Positions 172 to 23,601 of a stretch of DNA of 23,601 bases are shown here, in pieces. This stretch comes from a virus: positions 1 through 23,601 of IMG/VR virus record IMGVR_UViG_3300044737_000121; one strand, written 5' to 3'. Position numbers and translations under genes: made by a program. A model generated the notes under the pieces. The model saw nothing but the letters and a program-made list of their open reading frames with translations. It did not search any database and was not told where the DNA came from. Every line of letters starts with the position of its first letter. Within the stretch, counting starts at the first letter, position 1.

Positions 172-272
172 CGATCACATTACATGATTGCCGGTCCTGA
201 GCTGTACGCGCGACGAGAATCTAGCAGTAGAATGCTACCATGGCGTGAGCTAGTATGGTTTGATGACCGCGA

Positions 273-280
273 GGGGAGGA
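273..280 (+). promoter_or_regulatory. Shine-Dalgarno site that decides the helicase start
   Basis: GGGGAGGA lies 8 bases before the ATG at 289. The in-frame ATGs at 184 and 232 have no comparable purine-rich site upstream, so translation probably begins at 289. Confidence 0.6.
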
Positions 281-288
281 ATTCAGCA

Positions 289-3200: not shown

Positions 3201-4536
3201 ACGGCTTTCGAAGACAATTGGCGATAATGCAATACCGTGGGTCAAGCTTCTTGAAGCATTTCAGAGCTTGGTGAACGCCGGAGTCCCCATAGATGATGCG
3301 CATCTCGCAGCGATCGCCTACGCGGCGAAAGACTTCAACCGGGCTGTAGAAATTTGGGATCGCGCGGGAACGACCGAAAGGGACGAGTACCGTCGGGCGA
3401 AGGCGCACGTTGATCCCTTTCCAACGAACCTGAGATGGTTCAGTAGTTTGAAGGAGCATAGGCAAGTATTGCAGCAGTGGCGACAGCATTATGCGGAGTT
3501 AACCGACATCTCAAAACTTGAGGAGCGCGTGACCGCGGTGGTCGTGGATGCGGCTTTGGCGGAGAATGATTTGTCTCTGGCCGCAACAATGCTGGATCTG
3601 AGGCCCGACCGAGATCGTGTTGTAAAGCTCTTAAGTTTCGCAACCAAAGGTGGCGATGCCAACATTACGTCGGCGGCTGCCGTTCTTGCAGCAAGAACGT
3701 TTGTGCGGACGCGAGCGTGGAAATCCGCAATCGGGGCCGCCGAAGATACTCATTTCCCAGGACTCGCAGGCATTCAACTGGAAAAAGTCCGTTCCGTCCT
3801 GGGAAAGTCCAATGGTGTGACCGACGTTTTCCGAACCGTTGTCGATGAACTTGCCATCTCTGATGATTTAGCTGCAGAGTCAGCCGAACAACAAGCTCCT
3901 GTGGCCGAGTTCCTGAATAGGCATTTCATCGGGAAGGGCGGGCCGCAAGGGCAAGCGCATGTCATTTCTCCCGTGGTAATTGGTGCGGCCATCGAGCGGG
4001 CAGGTAAGATCGTGGATGCTCTTCAGTTCTACGAGGACGTCGGACGCCAAGCCGCTGCTGAAGAAGAACAGAAGTTTGCCGCTGAGCGATTGGTCCGAAA
4101 CCTAGAGCGGCACGCCGAGTACTTCCTGAGCAGAGGAGACGAGCGCCAAGCACGCCAGCGGCAATCACGGGCTCAACAGCTGCGCGAACGAGGGCGCCTG
4201 GGCAATGCTAAGGTTTCGGACTACCCGGTCGTGAGACCAGGCGTCGCACACGACGGTTCAACGGAATGGGCACGTGGACCCTTTAAAGTTGTCCTGTCCA
4301 AATCTCACGAGCGCTTACGCATCGAGCATACTGAGCGCTTTGAGACCGTCACCCTCAATTGGAAGGATCACATTTTGCTCGGTGATGCCAAGTTCTCGGA
4401 ACTAGATCGGTCTGGAGATGAGTTAGCTGCATGGGCAATCGAGGGCTGGAATGCCACGATCCGGCTCGTCAATGGAGGCAATACTTTTCGGGTAGTTGCT
4501 AGCTTCGGGAAGGAGCCCTTTGAAATCACACTTTAG
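289..4536 (+). CDS. Large SF1 (UvrD-like) helicase with TPR-like C-terminal region
   Basis: A 1415-residue protein from the ATG at 289; the frame is open from an ATG at 184, which would add 35 residues. The SF1A helicase motifs are complete: Walker A GRAGSGKST (about 312-320), Walker B DEAQDF (527-532), GDPLQT (565-570), NYRSNPGI, TRAKGLEF (711-718) and RLYVAASRAK (759-768). It should therefore be an ATP-driven 3'-5' DNA translocase. The first 300 or so residues match no domain I recognise. Residues from about 840 onward are alpha-helical with TPR-like repeats (for example the stretch containing AYRSAGDEHEAGKCLALAAE), a likely protein-interaction arm. UvrD/Rep are only about 700 residues, so this is a fused, specialised form. 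Such proteins often sit in defence islands, but a defence role here is inference. It stands alone, without operon partners. Confidence 0.85.
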   Translation: MALLVFVADGCQADAERHGQGSMVENLKASVEGSQNLTGFTFFPSTPFIKKNLGRSFRLIAYSVPFADNELILFLRILARGSNEYENFLANWDDDTPGITRQFQPYDSAQLQRIYAQLTSISPPTQPPEPSAEERAWLYEVFRKTAPEDELLVLETEEWVRKMRAPENRDFLALYHQMIEQLGTDKLRAATSNTGMVTHWEDNGRLGVVYLYRPDLHRLLLLEPIRQSDDVNAVLAEHGKRLASTGGEQQDLSRIAARSYPYLMILDQTAWLAIQKDEEANLALSPEEAELLESIHRAGVEGELGYPLFINGRAGSGKSTMLQYLAADYVDFALRRNAAPLPLYMTCSRDLLERARETVRGLLMAHHERLLEGAHSAADVDRILNRSFAVFHEFLYSLLPANVQNEFPRDRYVSYAEFRRLWSNDFARRPEARQISPDLAWHTVRSYIKGIRSSNGDELAPEEFNALPRRRRSVSEETYRRIYDRVWCSWYKRLCEEELYWDDQDLAARVLQLGLARGVDCSAVFCDEAQDFTPAELDIIFQLSVFGRRSLQPEELRRVPIVFAGDPLQTINPTGFRWDAVQADFHERFCAILDPRRRARIEVSYRELRFNYRSNPGIVRFCNLIQLVRAALLGAAGISPQEAWWVDVPVQTVWFALDNAQTKQQLEKRPDLVKLVNCEEGEETDFVRADSILKDLKEETEGIYRNVLGPTRAKGLEFPAVVVYRYGEAAPTNFLRLLSGEIVLRDSEERLPYEYFLNRLYVAASRAKGQLVIVDSGRALEAFWRFATDTEMIDRLMEKAGGVEIWKDAITFLVPGREQAWSGERIDPREQAVEYATQGRRKRDPYLLRQATLAYRSAGDEHEAGKCLALAAEFEGRRKEAGDKYRELGFYEEAFRCYWEGRNWTPLCELTAREFALTSRLESQAADFMARTTSPLGTFLTGFIDAAAESDWRSDVSRDTTWREVLSRLAERLSKTIGDNAIPWVKLLEAFQSLVNAGVPIDDAHLAAIAYAAKDFNRAVEIWDRAGTTERDEYRRAKAHVDPFPTNLRWFSSLKEHRQVLQQWRQHYAELTDISKLEERVTAVVVDAALAENDLSLAATMLDLRPDRDRVVKLLSFATKGGDANITSAAAVLAARTFVRTRAWKSAIGAAEDTHFPGLAGIQLEKVRSVLGKSNGVTDVFRTVVDELAISDDLAAESAEQQAPVAEFLNRHFIGKGGPQGQAHVISPVVIGAAIERAGKIVDALQFYEDVGRQAAAEEEQKFAAERLVRNLERHAEYFLSRGDERQARQRQSRAQQLRERGRLGNAKVSDYPVVRPGVAHDGSTEWARGPFKVVLSKSHERLRIEHTERFETVTLNWKDHILLGDAKFSELDRSGDELAAWAIEGWNATIRLVNGGNTFRVVASFGKEPFEITL

Positions 4537-6432: not shown

Positions 6433-8159
6433 TTATTGAAGATGTGAATGTGATGCGGGGCGGCCAAGGCGCACAATTTCAGACCATGACCGCTTCAGAA
6501 ACTCGTCAAGACTTGGCTGTTCCTCGAACACCATGTGGCGGCCGAGGGCCATGATGAGGGCCACGGCTCCGTCGATTTTGTTCTCCGGCCGCTCCTTACG
6601 TGGGTAGACGTTCTCTTTCGCGTCGTAATGACCGACCACATTCCCGATCATCCAGGCAAGGACAGCGTTGCCGTCGTGTACGATCTTTCCCGAGCGCATC
6701 AGCGCATCGAGCTGTTTGGTGGGTTCGGAGAAGTTCGCAACCGTCTGCCGGAACTCGACGACGCGTGCACCTTGCGTCTGCAAGCGGGTTGCGAGCTGGG
6801 TTGCCTGCCAGGGATCGTAGGCGACTTCGCCGACCTGGAATCGCTTGCTCGCTTCGAGAATGTCCGCTTCGATCCGGTCGAAGTCGATGATATCGCCCGG
6901 CGTCGCGGTCATCTGGCCCTGGGATACCCAAGCCCGGTAGCTGTCGAGGTGTGGGACATCGGCCGCAGCTTCCGGGACATAGAAGCGCGCGAACGGGATC
7001 AGTTTTCCGTCCTTCTGGAAGAGAAGAATCACGGCCGCAATGTCCGTCTTGGTCGCGAGGTCGACCGCGATGATGCAAGGCTGGCCCTCGAACTGTTCGA
7101 GGGCAAGGCCCCGATCGGCGCAACGTTCCCAGGCCGCCATGTCGAACAGGGCCTGGTCCACCTGGATCCAGACGTCGAGGTGCTTGGTCAGAAAGGAGGC
7201 CCGGGAGGCCGGCGACTGCATGGCCTTGCGACACTGCAAGGCGAGATGTTCGGGCTCGACCGAGATGCCGTAGTTCGGATTGGCCTTGCGCCAGGTCGCT
7301 TCGGCCGTCCAGTCGTCGCCCTCATCAATGGTGTAGATGATCCCAAAATAGTTCTCGTCCTTGATGGTCCCCTTCAGGATGTTGCGCACGTAGGCCTGCT
7401 GCTCGTAGCAGACGCCTAGCGTATCGGAACCCGCGGTCGCGATGGCCCAGAGCATCGACTGGTCGCGCTTGCCGGCCCCGGTCTCGATGGCGTCGTAGAC
7501 GTCGCGGCTGCGGTGGGCATGGAACTCGTCGATCAGCCCGAAGTGGACATTCTTGCCCTCCAGGATGTCGGCGTCGGCGGAGACCGCTTCGAAGTAGCTC
7601 GCAGACCGGGCCTGCACGATCCGGTGCGCCAGCACCTCGACGCCGAGCGACCTGCGGAAGTCCCTCGACCTCCGTACCATCTCCTGCGCGGTCCAGAACG
7701 CGATCTTGGTTTGGTCGCGCGTGCGGGCGGCGCTGTAGACCTCGGCGCCGCCTTCCCGATCGGCCGTCAGCATGTAGAGCGCCGGCGCATCGGACATCGT
7801 GGTCTTGCCGTTGCCGCGCGGCACCTCGATGTAGACCGGCGGAAGCGCCGCTTGCCCGTATCGGCCCGGACCCAGCCGAACGCGGTGGTCAGGATGAAGG
7901 CCTGCCAGGGGGCCAGCTCGATGCGCTGGCCGGCCATGGGCCCCTTGATGTGGGGCAGCAGCTCGGCAAACCGGCAGATCCGTTCTGCGGCCAGCGGGTC
8001 GAACCGGTAGGGCCAGCGCCGCCGCGACAGGTCGCGCAGTTGCCGTTCACAGGCCTGCCGGACGAAGACGCAGGCCGGAATCCGGCCCTCGATGACCTGC
8101 TCGGCATAGCGCAGGGCCCGCGCCAGGGGCGGGCGGGGGGCTTTAGCTCGGGCGGCCAT
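6433..8159 (-). pseudogene. Phage terminase large subunit (Terminase_1 type), split by a one-base frameshift
   Basis: The large terminase is the ATP-driven motor and nuclease that packages phage DNA. The N-terminal part starts at 8159 (MAARAKAPRPPLARAL) and runs through IELAPWQAFILTTAFGW to about 7840. The rest continues in another frame from VYIEVPRGNGKTT (Walker A) through HFGLIDEFHAH (Walker B) and the nuclease acids in IIAVDLATKTDIAAV and RPENKIDGAVALIMALGR. At 7836-7839 the sequence reads CCGG where one more C would restore a continuous protein of about 575 residues, normal for the family. Both halves are otherwise well preserved, so either the break is recent or it is a sequencing error. 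The start overlaps the small-subunit gene by 17 bases. The C-terminal tail (SWSEIVRLGRPASHSHLQ) may be foreign sequence. Confidence 0.85.
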
Positions 8160-8643
8160 CCATTGCCCAGAATTGGGAGAAGCTCTCCTGAGGGTCATGT
8201 TCGAAGGGCTCCTTGGCGATGCGGCTGCGGGCGCTCGGCGTCATGCCGAACTCGGCGGCGTAGCGCACCATGTCGACCATGGCCCGGTTGGCGATCCCGA
8301 CCAGCGGGTTCTGGATCGGATTGCCGTTGGTGGTCTTGATCATCAGGCCGGAGGTGAGCTGGTCGCGCTCCGCCATGGTCGAGATCGCGCGCTCGGCCTT
8401 GAGCCACCGGCCATAAGCCTGGGCGTACGCGGCAAGCGCCGCGCGATCGATCTCGCACAGGGTGCCGAGCTGATGGAGGAGCGGAGCCATCCGCTCCCAC
8501 TCGAGCTTGGCGTCTTCGCACAGCTCTGCGGGCGGGCTCGGCAAGGCCGCCTCGGGCTTCGGTTCCTGCTCGTTGAGCGCGCGCTTCCCGGGATTGCCGT
8601 TGAGAAGTTTCAGATACGTGGGCTTTGGCTTGCGTCCGCGCAT
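8143..8643 (-). CDS. Phage terminase small subunit (P27 family)
   Basis: A 166-residue protein, usual for P27-type small terminases, which recognise phage DNA and hand it to the large subunit. It opens MRGRKPKPTYLKLLNGNPGK, the family hallmark, followed by the helical region around AKLEWERMAPLLHQLGTL. The open frame extends upstream, but the ATG at 8643 is chosen because GGAGG lies 7 bases before it and the conserved region begins there. It sits 2 bases after the stop of the methyltransferase and overlaps the large terminase start, so the three are co-transcribed. Confidence 0.88.
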   Translation of the reverse strand: MRGRKPKPTYLKLLNGNPGKRALNEQEPKPEAALPSPPAELCEDAKLEWERMAPLLHQLGTLCEIDRAALAAYAQAYGRWLKAERAISTMAERDQLTSGLMIKTTNGNPIQNPLVGIANRAMVDMVRYAAEFGMTPSARSRIAKEPFEHDPQESFSQFWAMDGRPS

Positions 8644-8645
8644 GA

Positions 8646-9934
8646 CTAGCCTCCGACCGGAGAGGTGACGGTAGGGTCGACGCAAGTTGCGCCCGTGCGC
8701 TTCGCAGCAACCTCGGCAAAGCTTTCCTTCGTGGCCTCCAGCATCGCGGTGTGTCCGGTGAACGCCTCCCAGCGCTTGATGGCGACGTCCACGTAGGCGG
8801 GCCAGAGCTCGATCCCGTGGCAAACCCGGCCGGTGATCTCAGCCGCGATGATGGTGGTGCCGGAGCCGCAGAATGGGTCGTAGACCGCTTGGCCGGTCGA
8901 CGAGTTGTTCTGCATCGGCCGCTTCATGCACTCCACCGGTTTCTCGGTGCCGTGGCCGGTCTCCGACCTGGCATGCGGGATCTCCCAGACTGTCGTCTGT
9001 TTGCGGTCGCCACCCCATTGTCCGGTCTTGCCCTTGCGCACCGCATACCAGGCCGGTTCGTGCCTCCAGTGGTAATCCCCCCGGCTGATCACCAGTCGGG
9101 TCTTGTCCCAGATGATCTGCGAGCGGATGACGAAGCCGGCGGCTTCCAGGCTCGTCGCCACGTGCCGGCGTGCAGCGCGCTGTGCCACACATAGGCGACA
9201 TCGCCAGGAAACAGCATCCAGGCCTCGCGCCAGTCGTCCCGGTCGTCATTGAGCACTTCACCGCGGGCCAGCGTACTCCCGTCCGAGAGCCCCGCCTGCG
9301 CGCGCCATTTCGGGCTGTAGGACACGCCATAGGGCGGATCGGTCACCATCAGGTGAGGCACAACCCCAGCCAGCACGGCGCTCACTGCGGCTGCGTCGGT
9401 ACAGTCGCCGCATGCGAGCCGGTGCGCTCCGAGCAGCCACACGTCGCCGACGCGGCTGACGGGCTCGACCGGAGCCTCGGGGACGTCATCCGGATCCGTC
9501 AGGCCCTGGTGCTGTGCGGCTGCGAACGAGGTCAGCTCCCGGTCCGAGAACCCGACCAGTGAGAGGTCGAAGCCCAACGCGGTGAGATCGCCGACCTCCA
9601 ACATCAGAACTTGCTTGTCCCACCCTGCGTTCTCGGCGAGCTTGTTGTCAGCGAGCACATAGGCCCGGCGCTGCGCCTCGCTCCAGCCGCGCGCGACCAT
9701 GACCGGCACGTCCTGGAGTCCGAGCTGCCGGGCGGCCAGCACGCGGCCGTGGCCCGCGATGATGGTTCCCTGCTCGTCGACGAGCACCGGATTCGTCCAG
9801 CCCCACTCCCGGATCGACGCTGCGATCTGCGCCACCTGCGTGTCATCGTGCGTGCGGGCGTTGCGCGCGTAAGGCACCAGCCGATCGAGCGGCCATCGTT
9901 CGACCTTGTCGGCTGGCCAATCACCGCTGCTCAT
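8646..9934 (-). pseudogene. ParB-domain DNA methyltransferase, split by a one-base frameshift
   Basis: A phage-type protein with an N-terminal ParB-like domain (IIAGHGRVLAARQLGL) fused to an N6-adenine/N4-cytosine DNA methyltransferase. The catalytic motif is DPPYG in MVTDPPYGVSYSPKW, and the SAM-binding motif YDPFCGSGTTIIAAE lies near the C-terminus; this IV-before-I order is the beta type. The frame changes at about 9161: after HSALHAGT the protein continues as VATSLEAAGFVIRSQIIWDK in another frame, and one extra C at 9161 would join them into about 430 residues. Start at 9934 (MSSGDWPADK) with a G-rich site upstream, overlapping the HNH gene by 14 bases. Its likely role is protecting phage DNA from host restriction. 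As written it would be inactive. Confidence 0.85.
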
Positions 9935-12949: not shown

Positions 12950-13388
12950 CACCGTTCTGGGGCAGTTGGCGACCCTCAAAACCGCCCCAATCGCCCACCT
13001 CAAACAGAAATGGCGCGAGTTGTTCGAAACCGAACCGCCGCCCTATAACCGCAGGTTTTTGGAGCATCGCCTTGGTTATCGAATCCAACAACTCGCCTTG
13101 GGCGGGCTTAGGCCCGAGACGATCAAACGGCTCAAGGACATTGCCTGGGCCCTCGACGGCCGAGACCCAGCACGTCGCCGCCGCCCAGGCAATGACAGAC
13201 CGCTCTCCGGCACGCGCCTGATCCGGGAATATCAGGGGGTCGAGCACTGCGTGACGGTGCGTGACGAGGATTTCGAATATCAGGGTCGGCCTTTCAAATC
13301 GCTGTCCGCGATTGCACGCGCCATTACAGGCACGCGATGGAACGGGCTCCTCTTTTTCGGCTTGAAGAACCGGCGGGGAGCGGAATGA
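12942..13388 (+). CDS. DUF2924 family protein
   Basis: A 148-residue basic protein. AHLKQKWRELFETEPPPYNR and RFLEHRLGYRIQQLALGGL followed by GTRLIREYQGVEHCVTV match DUF2924, a family regularly found directly before serine recombinases in alphaproteobacterial islands. The C-terminal half (FEYQGRPFKSLSAIARAITG, then WNGLLFFGL) resembles a small DNA-binding module, which suggests an accessory role in recombination; that is inference. It overlaps the preceding gene by 8 bases and the recombinase by 4 (ATGA). Confidence 0.85.
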   Translation: MADTVLGQLATLKTAPIAHLKQKWRELFETEPPPYNRRFLEHRLGYRIQQLALGGLRPETIKRLKDIAWALDGRDPARRRRPGNDRPLSGTRLIREYQGVEHCVTVRDEDFEYQGRPFKSLSAIARAITGTRWNGLLFFGLKNRRGAE

Positions 13389-14698
13389 AGAAGCCCATCG
13401 TCCGAAAGCTCCGGTGCGCCGTGTACACGCGCAAGTCCAGCGAGGAGGGGCTGGATATGGAGTTCAATTCGCTCGACGCACAACGAGAGGCGTGCGAGGC
13501 GTACATCGCAAGTCAGAAACCGGAAGGCTGGGTGCTCGTCCCCGACCGTTATGATGATGGTGGGATTTCCGGGGCGACGCTGGAGCGACCTGCGCTGCAG
13601 CGGTTGCTCGCCGACATTGAAGGCGATCGCGTCGACGTCATAGTCGTCTACAAGATCGACCGCCTCAGCCGAGCCTTGATGGATTTCGCGAAGCTGGTCG
13701 AGGTATTCGACCGCAATAACGTCACCTTCGTGAGCATCACGCAATCGTTCAACACGACCACGTCCATGGGGCGGCTGACGCTCAACATCCTGCTCTCGTT
13801 CGCTCAGTTCGAGCGGGAGGTCATCGGCGAGCGCATCCGTGACAAGTTTGCTGCTTCTCGCAAGAAGGGGATGTGGATGGGTGGGTTCGTGCCGCTCGGC
13901 TATGACGTCAAGGATCGCAAGCTCGTCTTCAATGAAGCCGAAGCCGCAACGGTCCAGCGGATCTTCGAGAAATTCACGAAGAGCGGCTCGGTAACGGCAC
14001 TCGTCCGGGTGCTTCGAGCTGAAGATGTGCGCGGAAAACGCGGGCGCCTCATCGATAAGTCCTACGTCTATCAGCTCTTCAGGAACCGGGTGTATCTTGG
14101 CGAGGCCGTCCACAAGGGCACGTCCTATCCTGGCGAACACCACGCCATCATCAGCAACACGCTGTGGGACGAGGCCCACGCCATCCTGAGCGAGGGCGCG
14201 CGTCAACGTGCCGCCAGCACTCGCGCGCAGACCCCGGCGTTGCTGAAAGGGCTGATTTTCGGTCCGAGCGGATGCGCCATGACGCCAACGCACACGCGTA
14301 AGGGCGGACGTCTCTACCGCTACTACATCGCGACCACCGTGCTGAAACACGATGCTCCACAGTGCACGGTGCGAAGGGTATCGGCCGGTGAGATCGAGGG
14401 TGCAGTTATCGACCAAGTTCGGGGCCTTTTGCGATCGCCCGAGATGATCGTGCGAACGTGGCGGGCGGGAAAGCGGCTGGTTGCTGGGCTGCAGGAATCA
14501 GAGGTGAGTGCCGCTTTGCAGCGTCTCGACCCGCTTTGGGACGAACTCTTCCCCGCCGAGCAGGTTCGCATCATCCAGTTGCTCATCGAACGAGTCGACG
14601 TGGACCCGGATGGCATCGACATCCGACTGCGAACAGAAGGGCTAGCGAACCTGACGGCGGAGCTGGACGCGGTCAGGCCAGGGCAAAAGGCTGCGTAA
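13385..14698 (+). CDS. Serine recombinase (large, site-specific)
   Basis: A 437-residue recombinase. The resolvase domain is complete: YTRKSSEEGLDMEFNSLDAQ holds the catalytic serine (S18), with DRYDDGGISGATLERPALQR and YKIDRLSRALMDFAKLVE after it. GYDVKDRKLVFNEAEAATVQ begins the recombinase domain that contacts attachment sites. The C-terminal zinc-ribbon region is reduced, with only two clear cysteines (FGPSGCAMTP, HDAPQCTVRR). The start at 13385 overlaps the DUF2924 stop and follows a GGGGAG site; the longer frame from 13337 is not preferred. It probably integrates or excises the surrounding island, but no attachment sites could be identified within this window. Confidence 0.93.
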   Translation: MKKPIVRKLRCAVYTRKSSEEGLDMEFNSLDAQREACEAYIASQKPEGWVLVPDRYDDGGISGATLERPALQRLLADIEGDRVDVIVVYKIDRLSRALMDFAKLVEVFDRNNVTFVSITQSFNTTTSMGRLTLNILLSFAQFEREVIGERIRDKFAASRKKGMWMGGFVPLGYDVKDRKLVFNEAEAATVQRIFEKFTKSGSVTALVRVLRAEDVRGKRGRLIDKSYVYQLFRNRVYLGEAVHKGTSYPGEHHAIISNTLWDEAHAILSEGARQRAASTRAQTPALLKGLIFGPSGCAMTPTHTRKGGRLYRYYIATTVLKHDAPQCTVRRVSAGEIEGAVIDQVRGLLRSPEMIVRTWRAGKRLVAGLQESEVSAALQRLDPLWDELFPAEQVRIIQLLIERVDVDPDGIDIRLRTEGLANLTAELDAVRPGQKAA

Positions 14699-15191: not shown

Positions 15192-15227
15192 TGCAGTCTA
15201 CGGCTGCAAGTGCTGCAGGATGGCCTA

Positions 15228-16268
15228 ATGACGGATGGGAAGAAGACCAAGCTCTACGGGCACCTAGGCCAGGCGGTGCGGCAGCCCGCGTTGGTTGGAT
15301 TTGCGCCCGCAACCGTTCTGCACCGGCTGAGCTACGCCGATGTTCTCAACGAAGACGCTGGCACAGGCTATCAGCGGCGCCTCAATCCACAACACAGCCT
15401 GGATTTCCGGCGGTACGTTCAAACCGACGGCTCCATGACCATACCGCTCACGTTTAACGTCCGACCGGAGGCTGCCAATCACTGGCGCCTGATAGGCAAA
15501 GGCGCCCATGCGCGACTCGAAATTGACGGGGATGCACGTGTACTGGCGCAGGTGGATTGCCAGCATCGCTTGGGGCACCTCCACGACCTCGACGTACCGC
15601 TGCCCTTCATGTGTTTTATCGGGCTGAGCGCACGCGAAGAGATGGAAGCATTCCGGGTTATCAACAGCAAGGCCAAAGGGCTGAGCACGAGCCTGCTCGA
15701 CTTTCACGACGCGCAACTCGCTGCTGATCTGGCATCAGAGCGCCCAGAGCTATTCATCGCATTGCAGCTGAACGTAAACGAACAATCTCCTTGGCGACGT
15801 CAGCTTGATTTAGGTGGCGACAAGACGTCTGGTCTCACGCGGCGCGCCTCACTGCGGACAATGCAAAAGGCGGTGCGGGACTACTTACTCACCCCAACGG
15901 GAATCCTCCAGCGTGAAAGCGCAGAAGCCGTGGCCGCTATGGTTGTCGAGTTCTGGCTTGCAGTCACGGATGTCATGCCAGGCCCTTGGAGCGACCCGCG
16001 CGGGCATCTAATAACGAAGGGCGTCGGTGTTTATGCGCTTACCGGACTGATGGCCCAGATTTATCAGGAAAAAGGCGCAGCGGCCGCTTGCGCACGTCGC
16101 GCCTTCCGGACCGAACTCGCAGAGCTGGGGCCGAGTGTTGATTGGACTGGACAGGGCACATTCAAGGGACTCGGCGGAGAGTCGGGCGCCAAGGAAGCGC
16201 TGCGAGTCTTGCTGAAGATAAGAAGCGAAACGCTTGCTACCGAAAGGACGGGTAGCCATGGCCGGTAA
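15228..16268 (+). CDS. DGQHR-domain (DndB-like) protein
   Basis: A 346-residue protein starting at ATG 15228, with AGGA 7 bases upstream; a GTG at 15210 is the alternative. The signature ARVLAQVDCQHRLGHL (D110-C-Q-H-R114) corresponds to the DGQHR motif of the DndB family, with Cys in place of Gly. The second family block, EAFRVINSKAKGLSTSLLDF (140-159), is also present. DndB proteins accompany DNA phosphorothioation genes and act in regulation of, or DNA binding by, the modification system. Here no Dnd sulfur genes are nearby; instead the gene overlaps a radical SAM gene by 11 bases. A role as DNA-binding partner or regulator of a modification enzyme is inference. Confidence 0.8.
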   Translation: MTDGKKTKLYGHLGQAVRQPALVGFAPATVLHRLSYADVLNEDAGTGYQRRLNPQHSLDFRRYVQTDGSMTIPLTFNVRPEAANHWRLIGKGAHARLEIDGDARVLAQVDCQHRLGHLHDLDVPLPFMCFIGLSAREEMEAFRVINSKAKGLSTSLLDFHDAQLAADLASERPELFIALQLNVNEQSPWRRQLDLGGDKTSGLTRRASLRTMQKAVRDYLLTPTGILQRESAEAVAAMVVEFWLAVTDVMPGPWSDPRGHLITKGVGVYALTGLMAQIYQEKGAAAACARRAFRTELAELGPSVDWTGQGTFKGLGGESGAKEALRVLLKIRSETLATERTGSHGR

Positions 16269-17898
16269 AAACATTCTGCTCATCGAGCCGGGGTACAAGA
16301 ACAAATATCCACCCCTCGGTCTGATGAAGATTGCTCAATATCACGGACCGCAAGGAAAGCAGGACAAAGTTCGGTTTATCAAAGGCGAGGACAAGAGTGT
16401 CCTTTCGACCGCTTGGGACCGTATCTACGTCACGACCCTCTTCTCGTTCGAATTCGCCAAGATTGCGCAGACCATAGACTTCGCTCTGCATGCCGCGAGC
16501 GGGCAGGCAGATAAGGTCTTCGTGGGCGGCATCGCGGCCTCGCTTATGAATGAGAGATTTCGCGCCAAACCGGAATGGCACGGCATCCGTTTCATCAAAG
16601 GGCTTCTGAGCGCGCCGCCAGCGGTAGCGCTTCAGCTCGATGATTTTTCCGAAGAACTTTATTCCGGGGACACGAGCGGACGTCCGATCGAGGATCTCGT
16701 CCCCGACTACAGCATCCTGTCGCAGATTGAATACCACTATCCTGTCAACGACGCATATTTCGCCTACACGTCTCGGGGCTGCATCAGGAAGTGCCACTTC
16801 TGTGGCGTCCCGAAACTTGAAGGCGCGCAACGCGACACGGAGTCACTCACCGGACTCGTGCGAGAAATCGATCGGCTCTATGGGCAAAAGAAAGACCTGA
16901 TGCTCATGGACAACAACGTCGTCGCATCGCCCCGCTTCAAGGAGATTATTGCGGAGATACGCGACCTTGGCTTTACGCCGGGCGCCAAGCTCAAGCGCGA
17001 TGGCACGCGGACGCCAGTGCAACGTCGGGTCGATTTCAACCAGGGCGTCGACGCCAGAATCCTATGCAAGGATCCGGTGTATCTCCGAGAACTCGCGACC
17101 ATCTGTCTGAAGCCGCTCCGGATCGCCTTCGATCATCTCGGGGTGAAGAAGCCGTACGAGCAAGCGATCCGCTATGCACATGAATTCGGGCTGACAGAGC
17201 TCTCCAACTATATGCTCTACAACTTCCACGATGGTCCAGCCGACTTGTTTGAGCGAATGCGTCTGAATGTCAAACTGAACGAGGAATTGGGAGTACGGAT
17301 TTGGTCGTTTCCTATGCGCTATCAACCAACTAATCGACCCGACCGCGGCCATGTTGGTGAGAAGTGGACTCGATATCAGCTTCGTTCGTTGCAGATTGTT
17401 CTGCAGGCTACGCACGGCGTCGTCAGCGGCGAGCCTGACTTCTTCAAGCGCGCCTTCGGAGATACACAGAGCGACTTTGAAGGCATCCTTGCGATGCCAC
17501 ACGACTTCATCTTCAACCGAGATTGGTACGAACGGTTCGAAGGCAAGCCCGAACTTCATGACTACCAAGCCGCGTATCGGCGTCTCACCCTTGAGCAGCG
17601 CTCCGAACTAATCATTCTTCTCTCTTCATGCGATCCACGCGAGTTTGCAATGTTGGTCAAGCGCTGCACCGACGCGCGTCTCAAAGCTGCTCTCCAGTTC
17701 TACATTCCGGTTCCGAAGGATGAACTCGCCAGAATTTGGGCAAAGCAAAAGCTCCTGACCGCCAACGACAAGCAGCTTCAGATCGGACTGGCAGACGACG
17801 AGATTGTGGAGGACGCTGACCTCGAAAGCGAGGTTTCCTCACAGCCAACGGCTGTACAGAACCCGAAAGCGCGCAACGAAAGGACAGTCTTACAATGA
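16258..17898 (+). CDS. Radical SAM protein with B12-binding-like N-terminus
   Basis: A 546-residue protein; the ATG at 16258 is preferred to a TTG at 16234. The N-terminal 130 residues resemble a cobalamin-binding fold (NILLIEPGYKNKYPPLGLMK, later VFVGGIAASLMNERF), though the classical DxHxxG cobalt-ligand motif is absent. The radical SAM domain follows with YTSRGCIRKCHFCGVPK, cysteines 175, 179 and 182 in the CxxxCxxC spacing that binds the 4Fe-4S cluster. Such enzymes generate a 5'-deoxyadenosyl radical; B12-type members often methylate or rearrange carbon centres. The C-terminal 150 residues form an unassigned region with an acidic stretch near the end (DDEIVEDADLESEV). The substrate is unknown; its place among DNA-acting genes makes DNA a candidate. 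It overlaps the next gene by ATGA. Confidence 0.88.
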   Translation: MAGKNILLIEPGYKNKYPPLGLMKIAQYHGPQGKQDKVRFIKGEDKSVLSTAWDRIYVTTLFSFEFAKIAQTIDFALHAASGQADKVFVGGIAASLMNERFRAKPEWHGIRFIKGLLSAPPAVALQLDDFSEELYSGDTSGRPIEDLVPDYSILSQIEYHYPVNDAYFAYTSRGCIRKCHFCGVPKLEGAQRDTESLTGLVREIDRLYGQKKDLMLMDNNVVASPRFKEIIAEIRDLGFTPGAKLKRDGTRTPVQRRVDFNQGVDARILCKDPVYLRELATICLKPLRIAFDHLGVKKPYEQAIRYAHEFGLTELSNYMLYNFHDGPADLFERMRLNVKLNEELGVRIWSFPMRYQPTNRPDRGHVGEKWTRYQLRSLQIVLQATHGVVSGEPDFFKRAFGDTQSDFEGILAMPHDFIFNRDWYERFEGKPELHDYQAAYRRLTLEQRSELIILLSSCDPREFAMLVKRCTDARLKAALQFYIPVPKDELARIWAKQKLLTANDKQLQIGLADDEIVEDADLESEVSSQPTAVQNPKARNERTVLQ

Positions 17899-19589
17899 CT
17901 GAAGGTGCCCTCGCTCTCAAGACTAAAGGCCCGGTCGCGGAGACGGAGTCGATCGACAAGATCGTGATCGGAAAGGATGTGCTCGAACTGGTGTCGAGCG
18001 CGATGTATGTCGATCCGCTGACGATCTACCGCGAATATGTGCAAAACGCCGCCGATGCGATTGATGAGGCGCTGGCGGCAGGGCTGTACGGGAGGCACAA
18101 GAAGGGACTAGTTACCATCAGCATCGACTCGGCATTACGGAAGGTTACGATTAGAGACGACGGCATTGGTGTGCCCTGGCAAGATTTCGCGCGCTGTATG
18201 ACCTCGCTCGGTGCGAGCGGAAAACGAGGCGGCGTTGCGCGCGGCTTCAGAGGCGTAGGTCGCTTGGCCGGATTAGGATACGCGCAGCGCCTCACGTTCC
18301 GTTCTCGCGCACAGGGCGAGAGCCGCGTGTCCGAACTGAATTGGGATTGCCGACTGCTCCGCTCCGTTCTTCGGTCGAGCGATCCAGACGCAGGTATCGA
18401 AGATCTGATCCGACGGTCGGTGTCGCTCTCGCGTATTCCGGCCGACGGATATCCCTCTCGCTTCTTTGAGGTTGAGCTTGATGGCGTAGTACGGTTACGC
18501 AGCGACAAACTGATGAGTCCGACGGCGATTGCAGAATATCTATCGCAAGTGGCTCCCGTCCCTTTCTCTCCGGAATTCCCTTTCGCCGAAGAGATTCGTC
18601 AAGCCGTCGAGCCGGCGGTGAAGTTAGACACCTTTGACCTTCGCGTTTCTGGCGTGGACGGCGCGATCTATCGGCCACACCGGCGTGGTTTCACTGACGA
18701 GAAGAAGCAAGGGAAGTTTGAAGGGCTAGAGATTTTCACGATCCCAGACGTTGACGGAAATTCGGCCGCGATCGGCTGGCTCTTGCATCACGAATATGAT
18801 GGCGCTGTACCAACAGCAACGGGTTTCAAGGGGGTGAGGCTGCGCGTCGGCAATGTCCAGATCGGCGGAAACGCGCTCTTGGAAGAATTGTTCACGGAAC
18901 CGCGCTTTAACTCCTGGTCTATCGGAGAAGTCCATATTCTCGACAGGCGCATCATACCGAACGCCCGCAGAGATGATTTCGAGCAGAACGCGCACTACAG
19001 CAACTTGCTAAATCAGGTCACACCCATCGCGCGAGCGATTTCGAAGCGTTGCCGAACCAGCTCCAAGCGCCGGCAATTGCTGCGGGACTTCGAACTACAG
19101 GAGCAGGGAGTGAAGGAACGGCTGCATATCCTGAAGCAGGGTGGCATCAGGAAAGAAGCGCGCCGAGGGCAGTCGAGGCAGATTGAACATGCCTTGAATA
19201 AAATGAGGCGACTCGCCAACGCTCAGGAGGTGGACTCCGAGAAGGATAAATTGGGCACACGCATATTAAAGATAGAGGAGCGGGTACGTGAAGCTACGAG
19301 ATCGTTGCCAAGTTCTCCACTCGACGTCCTACCACCAGCGAAACGCGGCATGTACGGGCAAATGATCGAACTGATCTATGAGTGTTCGACCAATCGCGTT
19401 GCGGCAAAATCACTGGTAGACCGCATTCTGGAAAAGATCGCTCTAAGCGATGAAGCAAATACGGGGACTTCCGCCAAGAGTCTAAAGAGAAGCAAGAATT
19501 CACCTGTCACGGTGCCCCGAAATTCAAAGACTCGCGCGAAAAAGCGTGGCGCGCGGGAAACCGGCCAAAAGGCTCGACGTCCTGGCTAA
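17895..19589 (+). CDS. GHKL ATPase (Hsp90/MORC-like)
   Basis: A 564-residue protein starting in an ATGA overlap with the radical SAM gene. The Bergerat ATP-binding fold is clear: REYVQNAADAID (E47, N51, D54), RDDGIGVPW (88-95) and RGFRGVGRLAG (116-126) with the ATP-lid glycines. The order and spacing match Hsp90/MutL/MORC-type ATPases rather than histidine kinases, because no phosphoacceptor domain is present. Residues about 200-380 fit the following S5-like and middle domains. The rest is charged and probably coiled coil, with a strongly basic tail (KTRAKKRGARETGQKARRPG) suited to DNA binding. Bacterial MORC-like ATPases are known from restriction-linked operons. Here it would be an ATP-gated clamp or sensor for the locus; this is inference. 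Confidence 0.85.
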   Translation: MTEGALALKTKGPVAETESIDKIVIGKDVLELVSSAMYVDPLTIYREYVQNAADAIDEALAAGLYGRHKKGLVTISIDSALRKVTIRDDGIGVPWQDFARCMTSLGASGKRGGVARGFRGVGRLAGLGYAQRLTFRSRAQGESRVSELNWDCRLLRSVLRSSDPDAGIEDLIRRSVSLSRIPADGYPSRFFEVELDGVVRLRSDKLMSPTAIAEYLSQVAPVPFSPEFPFAEEIRQAVEPAVKLDTFDLRVSGVDGAIYRPHRRGFTDEKKQGKFEGLEIFTIPDVDGNSAAIGWLLHHEYDGAVPTATGFKGVRLRVGNVQIGGNALLEELFTEPRFNSWSIGEVHILDRRIIPNARRDDFEQNAHYSNLLNQVTPIARAISKRCRTSSKRRQLLRDFELQEQGVKERLHILKQGGIRKEARRGQSRQIEHALNKMRRLANAQEVDSEKDKLGTRILKIEERVREATRSLPSSPLDVLPPAKRGMYGQMIELIYECSTNRVAAKSLVDRILEKIALSDEANTGTSAKSLKRSKNSPVTVPRNSKTRAKKRGARETGQKARRPG

Positions 19590-19606: not shown

Positions 19607-19623
19607 GAAGCTGTTCAGGCTTC
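19607..19623. terminator. Weak hairpin between the convergent operons
   Basis: GAAGC and GCTTC can pair around a 7-base loop, followed by AATTT on the plus strand. It lies at the meeting point of the two operons, which are only 25 bases apart stop to stop, where a bidirectional terminator would be expected. The stem is short and the T-run poor. Confidence 0.2.
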
Positions 19624-21057
19624 AATTTCTGAACGCTCGTTCTGTTCCGGCCACAACAGCGCGCGTAGGATTTCGGGCTTGCTCAGAGCAAGATCTTCCT
19701 GAGCGATGCTGCCTACATCCTGCTGGACATATTTCGCGAGCCTTGCCTTCTGCTCTAGGCAGAAGTCAATAAATTTGTCAACTGTGTTCTCAGCTACAAG
19801 CAATAGGATTTCGCAGTCCCGAGTCTGCGAGATGCGATGGATGCGATCCTGCGACTGGATGTAGTCAACCAAATTGAATGTTCTGTCTAAGTATATGGCG
19901 AGATTGGCTTGAGTGAGCGTCAGGCCTTCACGCGCCGCTGCTGGGTTGGCAATCATTAGCTTGACCTGGGGATCGCTCTTGAAAGCGCGTACCGCCGCAT
20001 CCCGCTCCGGGCCCGAAATAGCACCATGGATAGTGACCGGCCGGTACAGAGCATAGCGTCGCTGAAGAACGCCCATATTCGGTACAAACGAACTCCAGAC
20101 GATCGCCTTCCTCCAATCTTGGGACAGAGCTTCAGCAAGAATACGGTCGAGAGCGGCGAATTTCGAAGGTTCCTCTTTGTATGCTGCATCCAGCAGTCCG
20201 GGGTTCGACGCGAGTTGTGCCAAGCGCACTAGCCTAGCAAGGATGGCGTCGGCCTCTTGAAGTACCTGCTCACCCGTGAGCGACTTCACCCACAGCGCGA
20301 GCTCGTTCCGCATGCTATCGTACATCGCCTGCTGATGAGGAGAGAGCTTCACCCTAAATCGGCGAATCTGCTTCGCAGGAAGTTTTACGGCATGATCCTT
20401 AAGGCGGCGCCTTGAGAGACCAGCAACCTTCAAACGAAGATCGTCTAGCGATTGGTAGGCGCCGCCCGCGCCCTTATATCGCGCGCGGAAGTCATCCAAG
20501 GTCTCCCCAAGAGATACGCCGTCGTCTAGAAAGTAAAATTGACTCCACAAATCCTCAGGCTTGTTCGCAACGGGCGTGCCGGAGAGGATATAGCGGCGGG
20601 CGGCGTGGCCGCGTAGCTGCAGAACTGCTCCTGTAACTTTTGCATCCGGCGTCTTGATACGGTGGCTTTCGTCGAGGACCAATGCCATCGGCTTGAAGCG
20701 CAACAGCGCCTTCAGGGCTGGCAACTCCGCTCCCACCGCCTCGTAGTTGATAACGTAAAACGCAGCACGCAGTTTTGTGAAAGGGCGCCGGCGCGCTTTG
20801 CGGCCGGCCCCGAACACTGCAACGGGCAAGTCCGAGAATTTCTTTATTTCTTCAACCCAGGTCGTCTTAAGCCCGTTCGGACAAATAATGACAGCACCGC
20901 TCAAGGTTTCGCCCTTTATTTCGGCGGCGATGGCGTCGATCAGCTGCTTAGTCTTTCCGAGCCCTTGCTCGTCAAAGAGAGCTGCACGATCGTTTTGTCG
21001 AAGGAACTCGGTCCCCTCTACTTGATGAGGAAGCGATGCGATCTCTTCACGCGGCAC
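19615..21057 (-). CDS. SNF2-family helicase/translocase (compact)
   Basis: A 480-residue protein starting at GTG 21057; GGAGG sits 8 bases upstream, inside the end of the nuclease gene, so translation is coupled with an 11-base overlap. An ATG at 21090 would add 11 residues. SNF2 motifs are complete: FDEQGLGKTKQ (Walker A, 32-36), LVLDESHRIK (DESH, 129-132), ILSGTPVANK, and QSQDRIHRISQTRD near 401-413. No accessory domain is present, so this resembles the minimal SMARCAL1/HepA-like core. SNF2 proteins move along duplex DNA and do not usually unwind it. Placed directly behind a small PD-(D/E)XK protein, it probably acts as the motor of a two-subunit nuclease. Confidence 0.92.
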   Translation of the reverse strand: MPREEIASLPHQVEGTEFLRQNDRAALFDEQGLGKTKQLIDAIAAEIKGETLSGAVIICPNGLKTTWVEEIKKFSDLPVAVFGAGRKARRRPFTKLRAAFYVINYEAVGAELPALKALLRFKPMALVLDESHRIKTPDAKVTGAVLQLRGHAARRYILSGTPVANKPEDLWSQFYFLDDGVSLGETLDDFRARYKGAGGAYQSLDDLRLKVAGLSRRRLKDHAVKLPAKQIRRFRVKLSPHQQAMYDSMRNELALWVKSLTGEQVLQEADAILARLVRLAQLASNPGLLDAAYKEEPSKFAALDRILAEALSQDWRKAIVWSSFVPNMGVLQRRYALYRPVTIHGAISGPERDAAVRAFKSDPQVKLMIANPAAAREGLTLTQANLAIYLDRTFNLVDYIQSQDRIHRISQTRDCEILLLVAENTVDKFIDFCLEQKARLAKYVQQDVGSIAQEDLALSKPEILRALLWPEQNERSEIEA

Positions 21058-21480
21058 GGCGAATTCCTCCGAGCAGGATTTCCGGTACATGCAGCCGCAC
21101 GACGTGGCGCGCGCGGATGAGCCCCGTCTTGATGAGGATCTCGTCAAGCTTGCGGGCTTCGTAGCGCGGGACGGAAATGTACAGCGGACAGAGGAGGCCG
21201 CCACCTTTCATCCTAACATTCCCGAATGTTCGCAGCTGAGCGAGAGTGTGTCCGTTGTCTATGTCGGCGGCCGTTTTTGCCTCGGCGAAGGCGAGCAGGG
21301 CGCCATCTAGTCGCGCCCCCCACGCATCCGGCCTATGTCCCCTCAGCATGAACGGTGTCGACAGCTCGTTCCAGAAGCCTGCCTGGTCAGCGCTGTGGTC
21401 GAAGCCCGTGACGACGAACCCGTCCGCGCACATCCGTCGCGCGCCCAAAGCAAAAGCGTCTGATGCTTGCCGCTCGGCAT
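21047..21480 (-). CDS. Small PD-(D/E)XK nuclease, interrupted by a probable one-base deletion
   Basis: The main frame (from about 21440) reads CADGFVVTGFDHSADQAGFW, then RPDAWGARLDGALLAFAEAK, then HTLAQLRTFGN. PD followed 13 residues later by EAK is the PD-(D/E)XK nuclease signature. This frame has only a TTG (21448) or an unsupported ATG (21433) as start. The natural start appears to be ATG 21480, with GGGA before it, which gives MPSGKHQTLLLWAR in another frame; a missing base within 21440-21446 would join the two into a protein of about 144 residues. It lies 7 bases after the upstream ParB gene and overlaps the SNF2 gene by 11. The nuclease assignment is reasonably sure; whether the break is real or a sequencing error is open. 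Confidence 0.7.
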
Positions 21481-21487
21481 CTGGTCC

Positions 21488-22528
21488 CTATCTACGATTT
21501 CCAGCGGCTCGCCTAGCGGTCTTGGGCACAGAAACGCGGTCGATATTTTCGAGCACCGCCGCCAGTGTCTCCTGAAGAGACGTGAGAATCTCCAGGCGCT
21601 CCGGACACTGCCGGGCTTCAACCATCTCCGCGATGGACATTTTGGCAAGGCGGGCGCGCGTCTTTTCGAGCTGTAGATAAAGCTCCTGTTCGCGAGGGTT
21701 GTTCTCCGCGAGGTACTCTTCAGCTGCGTCGAAACCGTTCACCTCCAAGAGGCGCACAGCCTCTTTCGCGTCAAGAATCTTCGGCAGCTTGCGGACCTTC
21801 ATGCCCGTATCGACTTTGCCATCTCGTACCCAACATGCGAAGCGCTCCGGGAGATTATTCATTCCTTCTCGGTGCTGTGTAATCCGCGTGTTGCGCGTGA
21901 ATTCAAGGAAGTATGAAAATTTGCTGCGGTGATCGGGATGAGCAGGGTCCTCGGTGATCGGAACGTAGATGCGGTCCATCATATTTGCCGCTTCGATATG
22001 TTGACGCACATCATTTGTGGTCATGCGGTACCGCTCGGCGACCTCGGCTTCGATGAGACCGGCCTTTACCAGCGCTCGCATTTGCAGCGCTTTTTCATAT
22101 GGTGCCCAACCGCGAACAGACCCGAGATGAATCTCGTTTAGAAGGTCTTGAACGGTTTCCTCCGGCGTGCCTTCCGGGATGATCCAGGCTGGCATTGTTT
22201 GGAATGCCGGATTACCGGGATGCTCTTCCTTGGCCGCTCGTAGGGCTACCACCCGACGATTGCCTTCTGCCACGGTATGGTCATGACGCAAGTAGATCGG
22301 TTCCTGAACGCCACCCGACAAGATGATTGAGCGTTTGAGACCCTCGGTATCCTCTTGGCTGGTCAAGAGCAGCGTGCATGCAGCATCGCTGCGATCCTGG
22401 TCCTCGAGCTGACGCATCGAAAAACCCACCCTCGGGTTAGTGGAATCCAGGATCACGACGTCCGGGTCCACTTCGGTGAGCGTCAGCTCCACTCGCGCAC
22501 CCTGAATATTACGTGTGTAGGCAATCAT
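21488..22528 (-). CDS. ParB-like protein A (downstream paralogue)
   Basis: A 346-residue protein. The ATG at 22528 is preferred because GGAGA lies 6 bases upstream; an in-frame ATG at 22546 forms an ATGA overlap with the preceding gene and is also plausible. The ParB N-terminal domain is visible: VVILDSTNPRVGFS (24-37), VAEGNRRVVALRAAK (86-100, the GxRRxxA nucleotide-binding box) and NEIHLGSVRGWAPYEKAL (131-148), which aligns with the ENxQR box of ParB. An HTH follows (AEVAERYRMTTNDVRQHIEA, 161-180). The C-terminal 150 residues are helical. Canonical ParBs are CTP-dependent DNA clamps; CTP use here is inference. It is a paralogue of the gene directly upstream. Confidence 0.82.
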   Translation of the reverse strand: MIAYTRNIQGARVELTLTEVDPDVVILDSTNPRVGFSMRQLEDQDRSDAACTLLLTSQEDTEGLKRSIILSGGVQEPIYLRHDHTVAEGNRRVVALRAAKEEHPGNPAFQTMPAWIIPEGTPEETVQDLLNEIHLGSVRGWAPYEKALQMRALVKAGLIEAEVAERYRMTTNDVRQHIEAANMMDRIYVPITEDPAHPDHRSKFSYFLEFTRNTRITQHREGMNNLPERFACWVRDGKVDTGMKVRKLPKILDAKEAVRLLEVNGFDAAEEYLAENNPREQELYLQLEKTRARLAKMSIAEMVEARQCPERLEILTSLQETLAAVLENIDRVSVPKTARRAAGNRR

Positions 22529-22542
22529 GGCTGTTCTCCGAG

Positions 22543-23601
22543 TCATTTCAAACCGTCACAGAGGTCGACGAAGCGCTCCAGAGCCGCATTGAGATTACGG
22601 ACGATGGTCTTTGCCCCCCCGGTGGGGTCCTTGCGGACGCGCTGGATGTCGTCGAGGCGCGCATCGGCAAGTGCCTCAGTCATCTGAACCATGAGCTTGA
22701 AGAGTGGCGAGCTGAGCTCCGGCCGATCCTGGTTTAGAATCTTTAGCGCGGCGTCCCGGCCCTGCTTGCTAAAGGCGGCGAGCGCTCTAGGATTCGAAAC
22801 AATATCGCATAGTTCGCGGACGTGCTGTCCCTGAGCAATTTTGTTAGTGCCTACCCATCGGACAAAATCATCGAGCGCTTCGGGCGAGTGCGTCACCCAT
22901 TCTCGCAGTTCTGGTTTCTTGAAAAGCTCCTGGAAGTAGCTGAATTTCCGCACAGCGCCGGGGCCGGGGAATGAAACAAGATATTTGTTCTTCATCACGT
23001 CGAACGCACGAATGTTATGGTTCACCGCGGTCTTTGAGGTCTTAAGTAGCTTGGCGATCTCCTCCTGCACCATTCCGAATTGATTGAATAGCTGATGAAT
23101 GTGACCCGCCTTTTCGAACGCAGACCATTTATTTTTTCCGCCGACGTGAAGCTCGCCCAGCAAGATTGCAATTTGACGATCAGTGATGTCGGCGGGAAGT
23201 ACCCTGGCGGGTATGGCCCGCCAAAGAGGATCGTCCGGAAAATTATCCCGCAGTTTACGATAGACCACGGTGCGGCAGTTCCCTTCTGCCACGACCATGT
23301 TGTTGCGAACGATGATGCGCTCGATAAGGCCGCGGTTGGCGAGAACGGAACGGTAGAGATCGTGCACGTCCGAGTCGGACCATAAGACATCGTTCAGGGC
23401 GCGCTGCTCGGCTTTGGCGCCGCCCGGCAAGCCGGCGGCCACAGTGTTCGCTACTCGCGGGTTTGTGGGATCAAGGAGGACGTCGTCGAGCGGCAGGTCC
23501 TGCCCGCGCACCTGGACCTTCACCTTGTCGAGCGTGATCTCGTCAACCTGCTCGACGACGACATTCGCAGCCCTCGCGACGGCCGCGCTACGCCTTGCCA
23601 T
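22543..23601 (-). CDS. ParB-like protein B (upstream paralogue)
   Basis: A complete 352-residue protein whose ATG is the last codon of the window; its promoter lies outside. The N-terminal ParB domain has VLLDPTNPRVAN (41-52), MVVAEGNCRTVVYRKL (102-117) and LLGELHVGGKNKWSAFEKAG (137-156). The HTH (FGMVQEEIAKLLKTSKTAVN, 165-184) is close to that of chromosomal ParB/Spo0J proteins. It shares the DxTNPRV, VAEGNxR, EKA, and FSYFxE blocks with the next gene, so the two arose by duplication and may form a heterodimer. No ParA ATPase is present in the window. It overlaps the next gene or sits 14 bases from it, depending on the start used there. Confidence 0.85.
   Translation of the reverse strand: MARRSAAVARAANVVVEQVDEITLDKVKVQVRGQDLPLDDVLLDPTNPRVANTVAAGLPGGAKAEQRALNDVLWSDSDVHDLYRSVLANRGLIERIIVRNNMVVAEGNCRTVVYRKLRDNFPDDPLWRAIPARVLPADITDRQIAILLGELHVGGKNKWSAFEKAGHIHQLFNQFGMVQEEIAKLLKTSKTAVNHNIRAFDVMKNKYLVSFPGPGAVRKFSYFQELFKKPELREWVTHSPEALDDFVRWVGTNKIAQGQHVRELCDIVSNPRALAAFSKQGRDAALKILNQDRPELSSPLFKLMVQMTEALADARLDDIQRVRKDPTGGAKTIVRNLNAALERFVDLCDGLK

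Follow-up and report, generated by a model that had tools for sequence, protein, structure and literature searches.

Relation to described modification systems

The Dpd system uses the ParB-like ATPase DpdB for the insertion of preQ0 into DNA, according to the accessible part of the report (PMC12839542). In DNA phosphorothioation, as far as the text available extends, Dnd modification cores are not tied to the DndFGH module and can be accompanied by other, diverse nucleases, and DndC stands outside the radical S-adenosylmethionine (SAM) superfamily (PMC10853773). A 2008 paper described restriction-modification operons in which GHKL+S5 ATPases accompany SNF2 helicases and nucleases; its accessible portion contains zero mentions of radical SAM (PMC2292703). 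Here we analyse a gene cluster in a viral DNA stretch of 23,601 nucleotides (IMG/VR record IMGVR_UViG_3300044737_000121, positions 1 to 23,601; hereafter the window) whose central gene encodes a radical SAM enzyme, referred to as rSAM. The best explanation, held tentatively as quite possible though short of probable, is a modular restriction-modification-like system on mobile elements in which rSAM marks nucleic acid, most likely the DNA of its own cell.

With Dpd the locus shares a DGQHR-family protein (72 bits with the DpdB model) and an SNF2 motor matched by DpdE models, both in one cluster, as well as the proposed combination of a mark with nucleases. It differs in that rSAM occupies the place of the marking enzyme and in that a GHKL ATPase and paired ParB genes are added. 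Membership in Dpd was rejected, given the cut-off of 300 bits for the DpdB equivalog and the lack of a DpdA model match among the window proteins scanned; DpdC and other Dpd proteins were likewise not found among them. The Dnd/Ssp systems, in the literature portions at hand, resemble the cluster in having a DndB-like protein and a modification core combined with diverse nucleases. The short DGQHR protein found here carries the motif DCQHR instead and DndA, C, D and E were not seen; with no match to DndC, DndD or DndE among the window proteins scanned, Dnd membership was discarded too. Like the MORC/paraMORC operons (Iyer 2008, accessible part), the cluster has a GHKL ATPase beside an SNF2 helicase and a nuclease, to which it adds rSAM, a second GHKL paralogue, a ParB pair and the DGQHR protein. 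No description of an rSAM-DGQHR, rSAM-GHKL or rSAM-ParB-SNF2 system was found in the literature searched, which had most subscription papers and preprints outside its range.

The existence of a real, conserved and mobile gene system with an rSAM core and nuclease modules is well supported. A restriction-modification-like logic of the cluster is likely, and DNA would be the likeliest substrate of rSAM; by analogy, the membership of DGQHR proteins in DNA-modification systems suggests a DNA mark. The original prediction, derived from the window alone, had placed a radical SAM enzyme with a degenerate B12 domain in a DNA-acting operon. Of this, an rSAM with a B12-like domain in a conserved nucleic-acid-acting system was retained, with the shared core and exchangeable modules that form the pattern of a marking enzyme, while the term degenerate was given up.

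A co-inherited core of rSAM and a GHKL ATPase

Gene adjacency, tail motifs and co-evolution were evaluated in 100 loci (80 from genomes, 14 viral, 5 from plasmids, and the window). The set excludes L008 and L014-L017 and keeps the near-identical L018/L019 and L035-L037 as separate entries. For open reading frames (ORFs) a simple script accepting the longest first was used, and co-evolution was expressed as the correlation of distance matrices (Mantel r) with 500 permutations.

A GHKL gene lies directly downstream of rSAM in 91 of the 100 loci. Those without it are L058, L060 (at a contig end) and seven divergent viral loci, L104-L109 and L111. This adjacency, together with 72 other SNF2 loci used as a control, ruled out a chance neighbourhood. 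Clustering of the ORFs of 105 loci yielded GHKL proteins in 95, paired ParB-like genes in 51, SNF2 proteins in 49, short DGQHR proteins in 44, the small protein p140 in 30, a PIN_8 protein in 28 and a long DGQHR protein in 18 loci. In these 18 loci (L010, L012, L018 and L064 among them) the core is found together with the long form, which has about 780 aa. The motif DCQHR is present in 43 of the 44 short proteins, and DGQHR in all 18 long ones.

Distances among rSAM proteins correlated strongly with those among the adjacent GHKL proteins, termed GHKL1 (r 0.84, n = 87), and with those among the short DGQHR proteins (r 0.65, n = 44); none of the 500 permutations reached either value. For the long DGQHR proteins r was 0.70 (n = 18). 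With a median identity of 0.62, rSAM is the most conserved part of the system, compared with 0.40 for GHKL1 and 0.22 for the PIN protein. Thus defined, rSAM and a GHKL ATPase, joined in roughly every second locus by a DGQHR protein, constitute a co-inherited core. The GHKL proteins fall into two lineages, GHKL1 with rSAM and GHKL2 next to nuclease genes; one clade holds 86 of 87 GHKL1 and 2 of 41 GHKL2 sequences, at a node support of 0.37 only. The N-box was found in 85 and the DxGxG motif in 79 of 87 GHKL sequences.

The rSAM proteins carry a C-terminal motif, EDAxL, in 90 of 91 cases with GHKL downstream and in one of nine others, a linkage that is confounded with phylogeny and in which L060, scored as tail-less, ends at the contig edge. 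In the window the motif is encoded at 17809..17823 (plus strand), where the disordered C-terminus begins. Its distribution suggests a docking peptide for GHKL1.

The tail, along with the tight coupling of rSAM to GHKL1, would also suit an enzyme that modifies a protein of its own system (GHKL1, a ParB-like protein or the nuclease), maturing or restraining it, with no mark on nucleic acid; the protein-modifying enzymes MgmA and RimO are among the fold neighbours of rSAM. Such a role fits less well with the short phage and plasmid relatives, which have no annotated GHKL, with the viral locus L150, which combines rSAM and a nuclease module and in which no GHKL was found, and with the much faster divergence of the partner proteins than of rSAM. 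On balance, a protein substrate appears unlikely.

Exchangeable nuclease modules

Three kinds of plug-in modules accompany the core: (i) ParB-PD-(D/E)xK nuclease-SNF2-ParB, which is present in the window; (ii) PIN-GHKL2; (iii) a HerA-type module. Of the 59 core loci flanked by over 7 kb of sequence in both directions, 51 contain at least one of them. Correlations were high within modules (SNF2-p140, r 0.83, n = 30; PIN-GHKL2, r 0.68, n = 28) and low between core and plug-in proteins (rSAM-SNF2, 0.25; rSAM-PIN, 0.20; GHKL1-SNF2, 0.19), with an intermediate value for rSAM-p140 (0.43, n = 30). The nuclease modules evolve separately from the core.

The protein p140 consists of 139 aa and has no match in Pfam or PHROGs. 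The signature PD...EAK...Q is invariant across 28 sequences, and a model of the relative from L026, with a predicted local distance difference test score (pLDDT) of 90.9, displays restriction-endonuclease topology. PD-(D/E)xK enzymes were frequent near the top of its fold matches (BspD6I, FokI, EndoMS, LmuA; Z 5.5-7.8, weak taken alone); with Foldseek alone, nothing matched at an E value of 0.001 or below. On signature and predicted fold, p140 is classified as a PD-(D/E)xK nuclease. The window copy (21047..21448, minus strand) retains the catalytic residues, but its family-like N-terminal start seems to lie in a different frame. The copy is therefore possibly broken or wrongly assembled; either a genuine mutation or faulty assembly might account for the apparent frame shift.

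The modules depend on rSAM in a one-way manner. Among 72,556 plasmid records, those with GHKL1 and DGQHR matches were exactly the 12 that contain a full-length rSAM, and all records matched by SNF2 (7), p140 (6), ParB2 (6) and PIN (9) were inside this set, which includes three near-duplicate pairs. These counts apply to E-value limits of our choice (1e-20 for GHKL1, DGQHR and ParB2, 1e-5 for p140, 1e-15 for PIN, 1e-50 for SNF2) and leave more distant relatives uncounted. On a Roseomonas plasmid the PIN gene is located about 88 kb from rSAM, so that physical linkage is not the whole explanation. In viral contigs p140 was detected in eight loci, all in records with rSAM, and rSAM was present within the fetched stretch for eight of eight SNF2 proteins of the module subfamily (at least 48% identity) and for none of the 72 next-best SNF2 proteins; the viral-contig scan revealed no relative of the PIN protein. 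In the order of Sinorhizobium, p140 was found in one of 397 genomes, namely the rSAM-bearing centre genome itself. The viral locus L150 encodes a very divergent short rSAM and a ParB-p140-SNF2-ParB module, and as no GHKL was found there, rSAM is the constant part. Where tested, nuclease modules never occur without rSAM. This pattern, expected of a marking enzyme and mark-reading nucleases, suggests such a relationship; it could also arise if the role of the enzyme were to mature or restrain the nucleases.

The identity of the nucleases also bears on the substrate. PIN_8 modules are common (28 loci), and an RNA-bound MiaB structure ranks high among the fold matches of rSAM, which would agree with a modification of tRNA or rRNA by rSAM and with cleavage of unmodified or phage-altered RNA by PIN and other nucleases. 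Yet the commonest module is of DNA type (ParB, SNF2 and PD-(D/E)xK, with SNF2 in 49 loci), and rSAM lacks the three extra N-terminal cysteines of MiaB and RimO. RNA is considered a quite unlikely substrate.

Further gene combinations were noticed beside rSAM or the core. Pairs of c10 and c11 lie next to rSAM in phages and genomes (L106, L107, L092, L096 and L014, four of the five with GHKL) and form a possible further nuclease module; their designations as NurA-like and HerA derive solely from the annotation of Marinitoga camini virus 1. In four acidobacterial loci and one of Verrucomicrobia (L067, L050, L051, L083 and L089) a HerA-like c14 and GHKL2 are located beside the core, together with c13 in four of the five. 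Pfam and PHROGs contained nothing that matches c10, c11 or c13.

Sequence motifs and predicted structure of rSAM

The rSAM gene (16258..17898, plus strand) starts with ATG at 16258, stops at 17898 and encodes 546 aa. Its frame is open from a TTG at 16234; alignments with relatives begin at the ATG, in agreement with the start chosen in the original prediction. The CxxxCxxC motif for a [4Fe-4S] cluster noted there (16780..16803, plus strand) was likewise confirmed, with C175, C179 and C182 present in every one of the 95 aligned relatives. The PHROGs profile phrog_9298 ('radical SAM domain protein') matches residues 4-372 at 4.6e-39 and places rSAM in this family as a long form, and the Pfam radical-SAM model matches below its curated cut-off (21.2 versus 29.5 bits).

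An AlphaFold2 model based on 82 aligned sequences (mean pLDDT 91.2; predicted template modelling score 0.88) consists of a B12-type Rossmann domain, a radical-SAM barrel containing the CxxxCxxC motif, and an extra helical domain. The latter (residues 393-517; 17434..17808, plus strand), delimited by predicted secondary structure, lies outside the extent of phrog_9298, and pLDDT is under 50 from residue 518 on, indicative of a disordered tail. The best solved fold match was AprD4 (6fd2; Z 17.6, 358 residues aligned, root-mean-square deviation (rmsd) 3.6), an enzyme not known to use B12. It was accompanied by MgmA (9ccb; Z 17.1, 325 aligned, rmsd 3.7), TsrM (6wte; Z 15.2, 330 aligned, rmsd 3.5), MiaB with RNA (7mjw; Z 15.2, 339 aligned, rmsd 4.6), RimO (4jc0; Z 14.9, 326 aligned, rmsd 4.3) and OxsB (Z 14.3); with VIA-align, families outside its list are possible in addition. 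AprD4, MgmA, TsrM and MiaB/RimO have in common with rSAM the Rossmann plus radical-SAM barrel architecture and the CxxxCxxC motif; rSAM differs by its extra helical C-terminal domain and EDAxL tail, and identity in the aligned parts is 12-16%. No close homologue with a proven substrate, be it DNA or other, was found.

Methylthiotransferases of the MiaB/RimO type bind an auxiliary cluster through three additional N-terminal cysteines. In rSAM the cluster cysteines alone are invariant, which makes it unlike a methylthiotransferase; no N-terminal cysteine is common to at least 20% of the 95 relatives, and this identity was discarded.

Residues 1-140 (16258..16677, plus strand) adopt a predicted B12-domain fold, with matches to AerR (7te2; Z 9.8 over 115 residues) and methionine synthase (Z 9.2). 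G90 and G91 of this domain are kept in 95 of 95 relatives. The B12-type N-terminus without DxHxxG had been recognised beforehand and is supported by these matches and by the absence of the motif; its description as degenerate was an over-reading, as the motif is also missing from functioning B12/rSAM enzymes. According to the accessible parts of the respective papers, cobalamin is bound by TsrM in a base-off, His-off state that has no lower ligand (PMC8992657), and Mmp10 accommodates it although the canonical motifs are all missing (PMC8828468), so that the use of cobalamin by rSAM could go either way.

Small-molecule enzymes of the same architecture are close to rSAM in fold (AprD4, TsrM and OxsB), and GHKL proteins can sense ligands. 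Both points would suit a viperin-like enzyme whose small product, an antiviral compound or a signal, switches on the nucleases. Such a role is regarded as highly improbable: the association with DGQHR and ParB points to nucleic acid, and no PADLOC family matches rSAM at E values up to 0.1. As PADLOC contains viperin models, identity with viperin itself was ruled out.

Distribution and mobility

A scan of species genomes detected 273 rSAM relatives. The best 80 of these, at 56-78% identity, originate, going by record titles, from Alphaproteobacteria, Gammaproteobacteria, Acidobacteria, Verrucomicrobia, Gemmatimonadetes, Nitrospirae, Binatota and Chloroflexi, and the core, with or without DGQHR, was present in at least seven bacterial phyla. 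Searches with tblastn retrieved relatives with a query coverage of 80% or more from the 12 plasmid records mentioned above, all alphaproteobacterial, and short, divergent relatives from 10 of 50,697 phage records. With the centre genomes (those of L021 and L051) excluded, rSAM was found in one of 198 genomes of the order of Sinorhizobium and in none of 198 of the phylum of Granulicella. High identity across phyla combined with such sporadic presence points to lateral transfer. Because intact relatives occur in culturable strains, for example on plasmid pNL1 of Novosphingobium aromaticivorans DSM 12444 (SARO_RS17520-17530), the system is directly testable.

The phage members of phrog_9298 share family membership and DFNQGxDAR-type motifs with rSAM. 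They are shorter (about 300-380 aa), without its C-terminal domain and usually without GHKL. DNA methyltransferase genes were found within 5 kb in five of nine opened regions around short phage or plasmid relatives (L016, L015, L116, L115 and L113). In L016 the short rSAM gene directly precedes three consecutive DNA methyltransferase genes, and PAPS-reductase-like genes are located near some of these five.

Proposed function

In the mechanism that we favour, SAM would be cleaved at the [4Fe-4S] cluster of rSAM, and the enzyme, whether or not cobalamin takes part, would attach a small group, methyl in the simplest case, to nucleic acid, the cell's own DNA being the likeliest target. The DGQHR protein would help to bring rSAM to DNA, by analogy with DpdB in Dpd. 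The GHKL ATPase, docked via the EDAxL tail, might act as an ATP-driven clamp that couples sensing of the mark to the effector, while the ParB-like proteins and the SNF2 motor would scan DNA or move along it, and the PD-(D/E)xK (or PIN or HerA-type) nuclease would destroy unmarked or wrongly marked nucleic acid. A bolder version, possible but doubtful, is a new epigenetic class in which rSAM, perhaps cobalamin-dependent, together with DGQHR and the GHKL clamp writes a novel carbon-centred mark on DNA (for instance methylation of an unactivated carbon in a base or deoxyribose) that is read by unrelated nuclease modules (PD-(D/E)xK-SNF2-ParB, PIN-GHKL and HerA-type).

Several observations weigh against marking of DNA by rSAM in a restriction-like system. 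The proposed mark, activity and anti-phage effect are all predictions, and DNA substrates are rare among radical SAM enzymes. A DGQHR protein, short or long, is present in 52 of 91 core loci, some of them on cut contigs, and is therefore not obligatory. Eight of the 59 fully covered core loci are without a recognised nuclease module, and four of the nine regions with short relatives show no methyltransferase. PIN domains are most often RNases and as such would fit an RNA substrate or a suicide effector. The rSAM family is slightly acidic (median isoelectric point 6.1); if DNA is the substrate, binding is more likely to come from the basic DGQHR protein (median 8.95) or from a complex.

Enrichment of defence genes in the flanks is not decisive either, as 37 PADLOC models matched among 97 flank ORFs and 17 among 97 control ORFs of the same genomes; these are counts of redundant models, not of members, for 97 of 129 first-chosen flank proteins. 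This result, and the occurrence of ParB-like genes and recombinases in plasmid and prophage locations, would be compatible with a non-defence function in the maintenance, replication or transfer of plasmids, integrative elements or prophages. The sporadic presence described above and the exchangeability of the nuclease modules, which is unlike a partition system, speak against such a function, which is considered very unlikely.

If rSAM does mark DNA, radical chemistry on unactivated carbons would join the short list of bacterial DNA-marking reactions, and orphan radical SAM genes of phages might then serve as counter-measures or self-marks. Even with RNA or protein as substrate, the locus represents a widespread modular system with nucleases that depend on a radical enzyme.

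Organization of the window

The DGQHR/DndB-like gene (15210..16268, plus strand) encodes a short-form protein of the ParB/Srx superfamily with the motif DCQHR, assigned to the DGQHR domain family by scores of 32.9 bits with PF14072 (cut-off 29.1) and 124.5 bits with TIGR03187 (cut-off 58.85). Its stop at 16268 results in an 11-nt overlap with the start of rSAM. The ATG of the GHKL1 gene (17895..19589, plus strand; PF13589, 35.7 bits with a cut-off of 25; assigned also by its position downstream of rSAM) lies at 17895 and overlaps the rSAM stop by 4 nt (ATGA). The overlaps with both neighbours had been predicted correctly, and the proposal of a DNA-acting operon holds more strongly than claimed, as an SNF2 motor, a PD-(D/E)xK nuclease and two ParB-like genes come next on the opposite strand.

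The SNF2-type DNA translocase of about 490 aa (19615..21090, minus strand; PF00176, 3.7e-29) belongs to an ORF open to 21204, with a likely ATG at 21090 judged from the length of relatives. It is followed by p140, the frame of which is apparently shifted near the N-terminus, and by ParB-like protein 2 (21488..22546, minus strand; phrog_1033, 3.6e-5) and ParB-like protein 1 with a helix-turn-helix motif (22543..23601, minus strand; PF17762, 3.1e-4; phrog_3694, 9.9e-15). Both ParB-like proteins fall into the same cluster (101 genes in 51 loci).

On the other side, a large serine recombinase (13337..14698, plus strand; PF00239, 3.8e-39; phrog_95, 2.6e-108) is a probable mobility gene adjoining the cluster. 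Genes for the large and small terminase subunits are located at 6433-8823 (minus strand) and give the left half of the window a prophage-like character, so that the cluster sits beside a prophage with the serine recombinase in between. A 1450-aa protein encoded at 184-4536 (plus strand) shows weak similarity to UvrD-like helicase and GajB, and in L074 the core is flanked by another large UvrD/AAA protein.

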